The notes beneath the pieces were generated by a model, which did no database searches, was not told where the DNA came from, and was given only the letters and a program-made list of their open reading frames with translations. 38,403 nucleotides of DNA, taken from contig JAFGXO010000105.1 of the NCBI GenBank assembly GCA_016936595.1, forward strand, positions 1-38,403, in the 5' to 3' direction. This DNA is from Bacteroidales bacterium. Lineage in GTDB: Bacteria > Bacteroidota > Bacteroidia > Bacteroidales > JAFGUD01. Made by a program: the position numbers and the translations under genes. The number at the start of each line of letters is the position of its first letter. Within the stretch, counting starts at the first letter, position 1. Below are positions 1,406 to 4,627 of this stretch, piece after piece.

Positions 1406-2434
1406 TCAAAAATTTAAAGAAAAACCCAAAGAAACACCATAAGTAAAATATTTATACTTTGTATTATTTAAAGAGTAATTATAATTCAAAGGATATTTAG
1501 CCCATGTATTTAAAAAAATACTGTAACTTTCTGTTAATGAGTAGCTTAAATACAAAGCACCAAAGGCATAATAATTAATTTTTGCTATTTTAGGCAATAA
1601 AAAGCCATCATCATCAGCCGCAATTCTATAATTTGAATAATAAAGAACACCTGTTATTAAACCAATTTGTGGCGAAAATTGCCAATTTTTTATTCTTTTT
1701 TGCCACCCAATTATCAAAGGAAATTCAATATAACTTATAGAATTTATTTTTTCGTACCTGTTATTAAATTCAGAAGTATCGTAACTTGCAATATTTGTGG
1801 TGTCATAAACTACATTAAAATTAGAATCAATATATGGCACCCATACAGTATCACCAATAATTAACGAATCTAAGTTAAGAAACCAAACTGTATCAACAAG
1901 CCAAAAAGTTGAAGGAATTACTTTTTGATAATAATTAGTATCAACTATTTGTCTGTTTTTTACAAGATTATAATTTTCATAATAATTTGTTAATTTTATT
2001 CCGGTAGTATAAAAAACATTTAGCTTATTAAAGTTTAACAAAAATCCATACCCTGAATAAAAATATGGTGTTCTGCTTGTATCAATAATATCATTATCAC
2101 TTAATAGCTTAAATTTTCCAACATCAATAATGGGAGAAAAATTATTAATATTTAGTTTGTATTTTGTTTTTTGGTGATGATAACTTTCGGCTATAAAATT
2201 ATATCTAATAAAATCGTACTTTGGGGGAGTAAAATTAGATAATTTTAAAGTATCAATTCTATTAGAAAAAGTATTGACGTCTATAACAACAGTAATATGC
2301 CTAACTTTATAAATAAATATAGTATCACCTTTTCTGATGGTGTCAAGCGAAAAAGTTGTATCTCTGCGAGTAACTTGAGCACTCAAAGAAAATGCACATA
2401 AATATAACAATAAAAATACAAAAAGATGCTTCAC
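1406..2434 (-). CDS. Putative outer-membrane beta-barrel protein of a sigma-factor cassette
   Basis: I do not recognise a named family. The 342-residue product begins with a classical signal peptide (MKHLFVFLLLYLCAFSLSAQ, cleavage likely after SAQ). It continues with alternating polar/hydrophobic strands rich in Tyr, Asn and Asp. The C-terminal strand ends FGVSLGFSLNF style, with a terminal Phe as in outer-membrane barrels, and GYGFLLNF and YLSYSLTESYSIFL look like further strands. Residues 25-75 contain Thr/Asp-rich repeats (DTTFSLDTIRKGDTIFIYKV) and may form a periplasmic part. It is the third gene after an ECF sigma factor and a one-helix putative anti-sigma factor, 32 bases downstream of the latter. 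It may therefore be a target or a sensor for that pair. Function is inferred from topology and context only. Confidence 0.6.
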   Translation of the reverse strand: MKHLFVFLLLYLCAFSLSAQVTRRDTTFSLDTIRKGDTIFIYKVRHITVVIDVNTFSNRIDTLKLSNFTPPKYDFIRYNFIAESYHHQKTKYKLNINNFSPIIDVGKFKLLSDNDIIDTSRTPYFYSGYGFLLNFNKLNVFYTTGIKLTNYYENYNLVKNRQIVDTNYYQKVIPSTFWLVDTVWFLNLDSLIIGDTVWVPYIDSNFNVVYDTTNIASYDTSEFNNRYEKINSISYIEFPLIIGWQKRIKNWQFSPQIGLITGVLYYSNYRIAADDDGFLLPKIAKINYYAFGALYLSYSLTESYSIFLNTWAKYPLNYNYSLNNTKYKYFTYGVSLGFSLNF

Positions 2435-2466
2435 AATAATTTTTGCACAAATTTAATAAATTATGT

Positions 2467-2931
2467 TTAATTATTATGCAAAGTATCTATTTCAGTAGTT
2501 TCAACGTTAATAATAATAATTTGATTTGCTGTATCAGAAGCATTATTTTGATTGTTGCTCAAATCTAAATTGGGATTTTGCTGGTTGTCAACGATTAAGT
2601 CAGCATCATTTGTGTAGTCTGTTTCAACAGTAACATTAGCTTGTCTGCCAACAACAATTTCGATGGTAACATCAACAGGTTTTTGAGTTGCAGCTTTTTC
2701 GGAATTTGGTTTAACAATAAAAAAGAAAGCAGCAACAACACCGGCCGCAATAGAAAAAGCAGCAACAATTTTAGAAAAAACTGAAGACAAGAAATTTCCA
2801 CTTGTTGGTATATGTGCTTTGGGAGTATCTTGAATTGTATTTTGAATTTGTTTCCAAGAAAAATTTACCGGAGCTTTCATCTCTCCAATAGAATCTTTCA
2901 CAATTTTATCTATGTAGTTTATATCATTCAT
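2467..2931 (-). CDS. Putative anti-sigma factor, single membrane helix
   Basis: The 154-residue product has a cytoplasmic N-terminus (about residues 1-45, MNDINYIDKIVKDSIGEM), one membrane helix (about 55-75, SKIVAAFSIAAGVVAAFFFI) and an Asn/Asp/Thr-rich outside segment with no recognised domain. It overlaps the upstream sigma factor gene by 8 bases, the arrangement expected of a sigma/anti-sigma pair. I see no zinc-binding HxxxCxxC motif, so it is not a ZAS-type anti-sigma; the assignment rests on position and topology. A start at 2952 is possible in frame. The ATG at 2931 is preferred because a strong Shine-Dalgarno (2936-2943) sits four bases before it. The extracytoplasmic part could sense an envelope signal or contact the downstream barrel-like protein. 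Confidence 0.6.
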   Translation of the reverse strand: MNDINYIDKIVKDSIGEMKAPVNFSWKQIQNTIQDTPKAHIPTSGNFLSSVFSKIVAAFSIAAGVVAAFFFIVKPNSEKAATQKPVDVTIEIVVGRQANVTVETDYTNDADLIVDNQQNPNLDLSNNQNNASDTANQIIIINVETTEIDTLHNN

Positions 2932-3556
2932 TATTATCACCTCTTTTTCCAATTACTTCTTTAAAAAATATATTTTCAGTTATGCTATGTTTTTTTAAAG
3001 CAATAGCAAAAAGCTTTTTCTGAATTAATTTTCTGGCTCTTAAAAGTTGTGTTTTAGAAGTGCTTTCGCTAATTTCCAATAATTCTGCAATTTCTTTATG
3101 TTTGTATTCTTCAAGCACATACATGCTAAATACAATTCTAAATCCATCTGGAAGTTCAGAAACGACATCTAAAATTTCTTTCTGCGAAAAATCCGTATTA
3201 CTTACTAACGATTTAGCATCATCGATATCAACTTGTTCAATATCCTTATTTTCAGCAATCTGAAAAGAATCAATATCATCAAAATATCGTTTTTGTTTTT
3301 CGTTAATAAATCTCAAACAATTGTTTACAGCAATACGTTTTATCCAACCTTCAAAAGAGCCTTTACCGGCATACTGATGTATTTTTCGGTAAATTGTAAC
3401 AAAAGTTTCCTGCAAAATATCTTCGGCATTATCCCAGTCTCTAATATATCTAAAAGCAATAGCCTTAATCAATCCGGCATACTCATTATAGAGTTCACTG
3501 AATGCTTTTTTATCGCACTGCTTTAATCTTTTTATGAACTGTTTTGTAACTTTCAT
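2924..3556 (-). CDS. ECF-type RNA polymerase sigma-70 factor
   Basis: This 210-residue protein has the two-domain layout of extracytoplasmic-function sigma factors. Region 2 spans about residues 18-90 (AFSELYNEYAGLIKAIAFRY, then NAEDILQETFVTIYRKI, which contacts core polymerase and the -10 element). Region 4 spans about 130-185 (LPDGFRIVFSMYVLEEYKHK, then the helix-turn-helix EIAELLEISESTSKTQLLRA, which reads the -35 element). The linker 95-125 is acidic. It is first in an apparent operon with a one-helix putative anti-sigma factor, which it overlaps by 8 bases, and a barrel-like outer-membrane protein. The sigma is therefore likely held inactive at the inner membrane until an envelope signal arrives. 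The ATG at 3556 gives a normal N-terminus of about ten residues before region 2. Confidence 0.93.
   Translation of the reverse strand: MKVTKQFIKRLKQCDKKAFSELYNEYAGLIKAIAFRYIRDWDNAEDILQETFVTIYRKIHQYAGKGSFEGWIKRIAVNNCLRFINEKQKRYFDDIDSFQIAENKDIEQVDIDDAKSLVSNTDFSQKEILDVVSELPDGFRIVFSMYVLEEYKHKEIAELLEISESTSKTQLLRARKLIQKKLFAIALKKHSITENIFFKEVIGKRGDNNE
2936..2943 (-). promoter_or_regulatory. Strong Shine-Dalgarno for the anti-sigma gene
   Basis: On the minus strand GAGGTGAT stands four bases before the ATG at 2931. It pairs over eight bases with the usual bacterial 16S tail. It lies inside the last codons of the sigma factor gene, so translation of the two is probably coupled. Such sites are rare in Bacteroidota, and the site decides the start of the downstream gene. 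Confidence 0.7.
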
Positions 3557-3559
3557 TTA

Positions 3560-3587
3560 CAAGATATGTAATTTTTAAAGGGTTGCA
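3560..3587 (-). promoter_or_regulatory. Candidate autoregulated ECF promoter of the sigma gene
   Basis: Reading the minus strand just upstream of the sigma gene, TGCAACC (3587-3581) resembles an AAC-containing ECF -35 element. Sixteen bases after its AACC comes TCTTG (3564-3560) as a possible -10. The transcript would begin at or very near the ATG at 3556, so the mRNA may be leaderless. No TAnnTTTG box is present here. This is inference from motif shape; the element could be chance in A+T-rich DNA. Confidence 0.3.
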
Positions 3588-3633: not shown

Positions 3634-4566
3634 TTATTCTAAAAAATACTTATAATCTTTTATCAACAAATCAAAGTCGTAAAATTTTGCTAAAACTACC
3701 AAATTATTGTCAATAAGCCCCAAAAATTTATTTTTATCTGCAACTCCTTGATAATTAAAATAATAAGCTTTAAAATTTATTTTACTCAAATTAGTTTTTG
3801 TGATATCAATTTCAAAAATGGGCTCTCTTGATATTAGCGAATCAATTGTTTGATTATCAATATTATAAAAAAAATCATCAAAAACTACATTTTCAAAACG
3901 AGTTAAATAAAACAATATTTTATCATCAATAGCATTTTGAACAATACCTGAATTTTTTGACGCATAAAGCTCAAAAAAATTATTAGCGTTTTTTAAAAAA
4001 AACTCATCTCCGGTTTCAAAATTTTTAACAAAAAGCTCGCTAATTTCATTTTTTTTCAAACAAAACAAAGTAGTGCTTAGCCATTTTTTAACATCAGTGC
4101 TAAAATTATTTCTTAAATCAAAATCATAAGAAGGAATATGAGCAATATAAGGTACATTAACATTATTTAACATATAATAATTTCCCGAACCAGATATATA
4201 ATCGCCAATATAATAAGCTTTTAGCAACCTATTATCAGAAAAAATTTGAACAAAAATATCGTCTTTTATTTTAGATGAAATTGCCGATATTGCATTTTCG
4301 GGCAGAGGTGAGTTCATTTTTATCAACCTAATAGAATTTAAAAGCCTTTCTATTGAACTTTGGCCAACATTATAAGCACCATTAACAATCCAATTATTAT
4401 CATGTTTAGAAACAACTAAAATTTCGTCATTTATAATTACAATACTATCAATAACCGAAGTATCAGAAAGAGCAAAGTTAATTTCGCTATCTTTTATAGT
4501 TGAATGGGAACATGAATTAACTATAAATAAAACACTTAATAAACTTAAGCAGAAAGTTTTCATCAT
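3634..4566 (-). CDS. DUF4340-like lipoprotein
   Basis: The 310-residue product starts with a lipoprotein signal (hydrophobic stretch then VNSC, Cys19 as the lipidated residue) and is probably anchored to the cell envelope. The region VIINDEILVVSKHDNNWIVN, followed about 25 residues later by a Leu-rich helix (IERLLNSIRLIKMNSPLPEN), matches the opening of DUF4340 repeats, which resemble a small beta-sheet module of unknown role. The fold seems to recur in the second half (ISELFVKNFETGDEFFLKN). The gene is divergent from dnaN, with 91 bases between the two starts. A second Met directly follows the first, so the start could be one codon later. Function unknown. Confidence 0.65.
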   Translation of the reverse strand: MMKTFCLSLLSVLFIVNSCSHSTIKDSEINFALSDTSVIDSIVIINDEILVVSKHDNNWIVNGAYNVGQSSIERLLNSIRLIKMNSPLPENAISAISSKIKDDIFVQIFSDNRLLKAYYIGDYISGSGNYYMLNNVNVPYIAHIPSYDFDLRNNFSTDVKKWLSTTLFCLKKNEISELFVKNFETGDEFFLKNANNFFELYASKNSGIVQNAIDDKILFYLTRFENVVFDDFFYNIDNQTIDSLISREPIFEIDITKTNLSKINFKAYYFNYQGVADKNKFLGLIDNNLVVLAKFYDFDLLIKDYKYFLE

Positions 4567-4619: not shown

Positions 4620-4627
4620 TAATTTTG
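4620..4627 (+). promoter_or_regulatory. Candidate -7 box for dnaN
   Basis: TAATTTTG matches the Bacteroidota -7 consensus TAnnTTTG and lies 30 bases before the dnaN ATG. No good TTTG -33 element is visible at the usual distance, so the match is partial. Confidence 0.5.

Follow-up and report, generated by a model that had tools for sequence, protein, structure and literature searches.

Three adjoining genes on the minus strand of a Bacteroidales contig, within the 38,403-nucleotide stretch analysed here (the window), encode a sigma factor, a one-helix membrane protein and a barrel-like protein, and they raise the question of whether they form one envelope-sensing system and of what kind it would be. 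The original prediction had suggested that they may form a compact, self-contained sensing unit in which the barrel is sensor or target, and had found no recognisable family for the anti-sigma candidate. The reading proposed in this study, to which we give a probability of roughly 0.7, is envelope signalling of the Dma type with the anti-sigma factor split into two genes.

The first gene (2924..3556, minus strand) encodes an ECF sigma factor of 210 aa, placed as such by the Pfam models Sigma70_r2 (64.1 bits) and Sigma70_r4_2 (52.2 bits), each above its cut-off, and by the sigma tree described below. It is followed by the gene of the membrane protein, with which it shares 8 bases (ATGAATGA, 2924..2931, minus strand; direct DNA reading) holding the sigma stop and the anti-sigma start, and, after a further 32 bases, by the barrel gene. 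The 8-base overlap between an ECF sigma gene and a one-helix protein was thus confirmed by the coordinates, by Pfam and by reading of the DNA. In the sister genome G001, where this overlap is kept, the sigma factor matched at 68% and the anti-sigma factor at 40%, and triads homologous to the three genes were found in other families. A lipoprotein-like gene (3634-4566, minus strand), matched weakly by DUF4340 (27.3 bits against a cut-off of 25), separates the sigma gene from a divergent gene at 4625; G001 and G002 have a similar-sized gene at this position.

The second gene (2467..2931, minus strand; ATG at 2931, stop at 2467) encodes the inner-membrane anti-sigma half, a protein of 154 aa. Hydropathy revealed a single membrane helix at residues 55-73 (2713..2769, minus strand), in front of which residues 1-37 (2821..2931, minus strand) make up an N-terminal cytoplasmic anti-sigma domain with a YID...P...W pattern, delimited by hhalign. 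As had been predicted, the protein has no zinc motif and its outer part is rich in Asn and Asp: it contains no Cys and two His, the H...C..C motif of zinc-binding anti-sigma factors (ZAS) being absent for lack of Cys, and the 80 residues of the outer part include 14 Asn and 8 Asp (28%). The split anti-sigma factors end in a strand-like tail, and a DT motif stands near the C-terminus (2482..2487, minus strand; alignment A1). The T of this motif was invariant in all 10 aligned split anti-sigma factors, two of which have KT at that column.

The third gene (1406..2434, minus strand) starts with GTG and encodes the outer-membrane barrel half, 342 aa in length, assigned by homology and by a low-confidence model with long strands. 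The signal peptide expected of it was found at residues 1 to about 19 (2378-2434, minus strand), which are hydrophobic and end in SLSAQ. Just behind it there is an Asp-Thr repeat (residues 25-38; 2321..2362, minus strand; alignment A2), in which D25, T26, D37 and T38 are invariant. Asp-Thr clusters were present in 13 of 13 standalone barrels, searched over 160 aa, versus 9 of 40 fused barrel starts, searched over 95 aa and drawn from an earlier barrel profile that included the barrel-less L113 and L114. Because only 9 of the 40 fused starts carry them, these clusters are no general ancestral trait. The model of the window barrel, built on four rows, had a mean pLDDT of 47 and was too weak for fold assignment; the 50 PDB matches listed were all outer-membrane proteins, none of them with an E-value below 0.001 (best, 3.1e-3).

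The identity of the two membrane proteins was sought among relatives of the sigma gene. The sigma search covered 295 genomes of the same order, 180 of which had a match at E 1e-30; the regions surrounding selected matches were examined, together with named loci. Among the 79 sigma-type genes classified, 56 were followed by a long ORF starting with a short N-terminal domain and a membrane helix, and 38 of these 56 long ORFs carried a C-terminal barrel domain, 28 of the 38 being the rows from which the profile itself was built. Independent support for the barrel domain came from the Pfam model OMP_b-brl_2, which reached 27.5 bits in the fused relative L065 (cut-off 27); L086 and the barrel of L041 scored slightly below that threshold. 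A fused-barrel profile, made from the C-terminal 270 residues of 28 fused proteins with none from the split clade and with L113 and L114 left out, matched a single one of the 30 ORFs in the window, the barrel, with an E-value of 9.4e-34. The same profile found none of the PKD/CHU_C-type proteins used as a negative control. As a query against 60 relatives, the window barrel gave matches in nine; by sequence alone, its residues 129-337 (1424..2050, minus strand) matched the C-terminal portion of a frame of 557 aa next to a sigma gene in G035 (contig C158, E 2.1e-17), and matches of this kind were also seen in G049, G055, G051 and G033. At the other end of the chain, the comparison of 10 split anti-sigma factors with 44 fused N-terminal domains by hhalign gave a probability of 97.4 and an E-value of 1.5e-11 over 37 columns; at the level of single sequences, the window anti-sigma factor was the best of the window ORFs, with a weak match (E 0.002 for 5000 sequences).

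In a study on Bacteroides thetaiotaomicron (PMC13088901), the Dma layout is given as an anti-sigma domain, one membrane helix, a tether and an outer-membrane barrel, beside an ECF sigma factor. Because both the N-terminal domain and the barrel match fused anti-sigma/beta-barrel proteins of this layout, the window very probably holds a Dma-type anti-sigma factor that was cut in two within its periplasmic tether. The statement that the anti-sigma candidate belongs to no recognisable family therefore stands for Pfam and NCBIfam, in which neither the second nor the third gene had a significant match, and gives way where profiles are compared, since these point to a split Dma-type protein.

The sigma tree was computed with 70 sequences after 10 of 80 rows had been dropped (L044, L047-L051, L064, L111, L132 and L141). 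The window fell into a clade of 12 rows (UFBoot/SH-aLRT 100/98) which adjoins fused types, the bootstrap there being not fully settled: the window, G001, G002, G038, G174, G287, G204, G146, G086, G033, G133 and the named Bacteroidales locus L041. All 12 rows encode the barrel separately, and seven of them the sigma factor as well; in the remaining five (G146, G086, G033, G133 and L041) sigma and anti-sigma share one frame of 376-421 aa, inside which the first methionine of the anti-sigma factor is retained. Such fusions with the barrel as next gene were observed at L041:5001-6239, L060:305-1570, L062:3603-4826, L091:1357-2604 and L208:538-1668. In the predicted structure of the L041 fusion the sigma part was good and the helix at 214-226 moderate, while the region matching the tether had pLDDT below 50 with no aligned rows there.

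In eight clade rows the barrel follows directly 3'; the other four (G001, G002, G038 and G174) carry it on a different contig, among them both sister species of the window's genus, so that compactness does not hold as a general trait. In G001 the anti-sigma gene is followed by a terminator-like sequence, recognised by eye, and by a convergent reading frame, from which it follows that the barrel has truly moved. The anti-sigma gene of G174 was found by reading the DNA, where an opposite-strand ORF overlaps it; that of G002 was not found, the sigma gene stopping at the contig edge. A profile of 10 standalone barrels identified a single full-length standalone barrel per genome in 10 genomes, its 11 other matches all falling in ORFs of 472-681 aa, and it recovered the G174 barrel, which was outside the profile, with an E-value of 5.6e-73. 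At E 1e-38, a full-length standalone barrel was present in at least 12 of the 295 genomes, a possible undercount given that the best six candidates per genome were scored, and 11 of these 12 also have a sigma factor of the clade. The sole exception among the 12 is G071, in which neither clade sigma nor anti-sigma was found beside its barrel (L209; C844:8156-9280); they were lost or lie in an assembly gap.

Synteny and independent inheritance had been named as the test of the unit, and the outcome was mixed: linkage is broken in a third of the clade, while co-occurrence is kept. The self-contained sensing unit nevertheless largely survives, with the reservation of those unlinked barrels, given this co-occurrence and the fact that neighbouring parts are found fused both ways, anti-sigma to barrel in most relatives and sigma to anti-sigma in five clade rows. 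Since the clade is close to the fused types and nested beside them, a single cut is the simplest history of the clade. A second split lineage is represented by L122, whose separate barrel matches the fused-barrel profile. Two other candidates for split forms were rejected, namely L093, which barrel homology did not support, and the Flavobacteriaceae triads L043 and L052, whose third genes had no profile match.

Some further arrangements were observed among the relatives. In L060, L062, L091, L041 and L108 the barrel is often followed by a gene whose secreted product, about 500-700 aa long, resembles type IX cargo, by eye, at its C-terminus; the window has no such gene. In other loci the outer end of the anti-sigma protein consists of PKD domains and a CHU_C type IX secretion signal, as in L113:3017-4234 (G001) and L092:2062-3312 (G255), where the Pfam models exceeded their cut-offs in both proteins scanned, and, by sequence pattern, in L070, L072, L088, L089, L094, L115, L123 and L133. 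In this variant the far end of the anti-sigma protein would reach the cell surface by another route. The literature search returned no paper that names a membrane anti-sigma factor together with PKD/CHU_C.

A promoter-like site, TGCAAC-N15-TATCT (3562..3587, minus strand), precedes the sigma gene and is probably an autoregulated ECF promoter; the region of the original prediction, which extended to 3587, takes it in. In all 12 clade loci TGCAAC occurs in the interval between 120 bases upstream of the sigma ORF and 20 bases inside it, and 53 of the 68 other sigma rows have GCAAC. At the matching distance, [CT]ATCT was found in 9 of 12 clade rows versus 4 of 68 others (Fisher p 5.8e-7) and GTC in 0 of 12 versus 37 of 68 (Fisher p 2.9e-4), in tests that ignore the relatedness of rows and have cut-offs set post hoc, with shuffle controls that preserve base content alone. 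The −10 element of the clade is thus YATCT whereas most fused relatives have GTC, and the site has the appearance of an ECF promoter recognised by the clade sigma itself, its −10 altered in the lineage that cut the anti-sigma factor. It ends only 5 bases before the assigned sigma ATG, and the sigma transcript may therefore be nearly leaderless. In the window's genome the pattern had seven matches versus two for the reversed control; by automatic ORF calling, the sigma site and L188 alone precede a gene, and the rest lie inside ORFs. L188 (G000:C120:31196-31222) stands 18 bases before an ORF of 186 aa that looks secreted, and that may be another target of the sigma factor; the site L189 is inside an over-extended ORF call and may also be upstream of a gene. 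The 200 bases preceding the unlinked barrels of G001, G002, G038 and G174 showed no TGCAAC site.

With regard to how the two halves might communicate, the net charges of the anti-sigma C-terminus and the barrel N-terminus were opposite, with r −0.83 over 11 pairs and −0.84 over six pairs when one pair per sister group was taken, for segments that were picked after inspection and rows that are related and not independent. Among 11 other segment pairs the next most negative value was −0.65, and a strongly positive one (+0.87) is what shared composition would give; the end charges of G001 fitted poorly (−6/−1). Because the two ends share Asp-Thr motifs and covary in opposite charge, the anti-sigma tail may touch the N-terminal segment of the barrel directly, a suggestion that we put forward with some reserve.

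On these grounds the following mechanism can be proposed. The short inner-membrane protein would hold the sigma factor by means of its N-terminal domain and one helix, as homology and the natural fusions suggest, and the barrel protein, which by homology is the former outer-membrane half, now has a signal peptide of its own. The anti-sigma tail and the Asp-Thr segment of the barrel may meet in the periplasm, replacing the covalent tether, and a change at the outer membrane would alter this contact. The anti-sigma factor would then be cut or would let go of the sigma factor, and the freed sigma would transcribe its own operon from the TGCAAC-N15/16-YATCT promoter. The chances that release occurs by proteolysis are about even; this step is considered because a sigma factor fused to a membrane anti-sigma cannot otherwise leave the membrane. 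Of the two roles that had been predicted for the barrel, that of a sensor upstream of the anti-sigma factor is rather likely and is preferred to that of a mere target, because the barrel descends from the outer-membrane half of a fused anti-sigma.

A different account is that the anti-sigma factor senses periplasmic stress by itself, as does RseA of E. coli, and that the barrel is merely a co-regulated outer-membrane protein made by the sigma factor. The separation of the barrel from sigma and anti-sigma in four clade members agrees with it, and as the final gene of the run headed by the sigma promoter the window barrel is probably a target as well; however, the unlinked barrels have no site for the clade sigma, which argues against the role of target only. 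The lone anti-sigma also fits poorly with a barrel that derives from its own outer-membrane domain, that accompanies the sigma factor even where unlinked and that retains, opposite the anti-sigma tail, a conserved N-terminal segment. For these reasons we regard it as unlikely.

Far less probable is that an ordinary sigma/anti-sigma pair lies by coincidence beside an unrelated outer-membrane protein gene. The lack of Pfam and NCBIfam matches for the second and third genes and the position of the barrel elsewhere in both sister species would suit such a coincidence, which is largely refuted by the fused relatives and by co-occurrence across families. The window's genome is a draft, 85% complete, in which one fused gene could have been broken by misassembly or a frameshift; yet the barrel gene possesses a start and a signal peptide of its own, 12 other standalone barrels are arranged alike and anti-sigma factors of other species also end at this DT motif, so that an artefact is refuted by independent genomes and its probability is negligible.

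The split Dma-type system thus remains our preferred reading. A lineage with a cut chain would mean either that covalent continuity is unnecessary or that the cut indicates the point at which the signal crosses. The arrangements form a series (sigma and anti-sigma+barrel; sigma+anti-sigma and barrel; three genes; barrel elsewhere) of natural cut points and fusions that could be used to locate sensing and release, and the sigma/anti-sigma fusions of the clade suggest that release involves a cutting step. Less likely than not is the broader proposal of a naturally split trans-envelope protein, whose halves would rejoin in the periplasm through matched, oppositely charged Asp-Thr strands, also where the two genes are distant from each other, the lineage reaching independently a layout like that of FecA/FecR.

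Concerning known systems, Dma1 is the subject of a 2024 PNAS paper, whose content is taken here from PMC13088901 and PMC12596196. Among titles and abstract openings, a set from which subscription papers were mostly absent and which did not include that founding paper, no report of a split Dma form was recognised; we consider the split form new, whereas Dma proteins and the sigma/Dma fusion (Dma3) are already published. In PMC13088901 (J Bacteriol 2026), Dma proteins are described as single chains from the cytosol to the outer membrane. The likeness of the window to Dma1 and Dma2 of the Dma/Das systems is one of layout beside an ECF sigma, by published description. As in the Dma family, there is an N-terminal anti-sigma domain (at the level of homology), a single helix behind it and a barrel homologous to fused C-termini of the Dma layout; the family adjoins an ECF21 sigma, and the window anti-sigma adjoins a sigma placed only as ECF by Pfam. 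The family is further characterized by a long disordered tether, with which the Asn/Asp-rich outer part can be compared, and by changes in vesicle production upon derepression. Compared with those descriptions of Dma1 and Dma2, the window has two genes in place of one chain, the cut lying in the tether, and the barrel of its clade has its own signal peptide and is sometimes unlinked. Dma3 of B. thetaiotaomicron, according to the same source, joins sigma domain and anti-sigma in one polypeptide, as do five of the 12 clade members; in contrast to what is described for Dma3, these keep the barrel as a separate gene, and the window has three separate parts. A sigma/anti-sigma fusion is likewise described for IutY of Pseudomonas putida in PMC5411451. 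The window also resembles systems of the FecA-FecR-FecI type, with an outer-membrane barrel bearing an N-terminal periplasmic segment, an inner-membrane anti-sigma factor and an ECF sigma; it differs in that no FecR-type or TonB-receptor domain was found in its proteins by Pfam or NCBIfam, and in that its barrel is small and had an ancestor fused to the anti-sigma factor. Because a barrel in the same chain is one of the defining features, the window pair should not be classed as a Dma protein; it is better described as a two-gene descendant of Dma that probably works like one.
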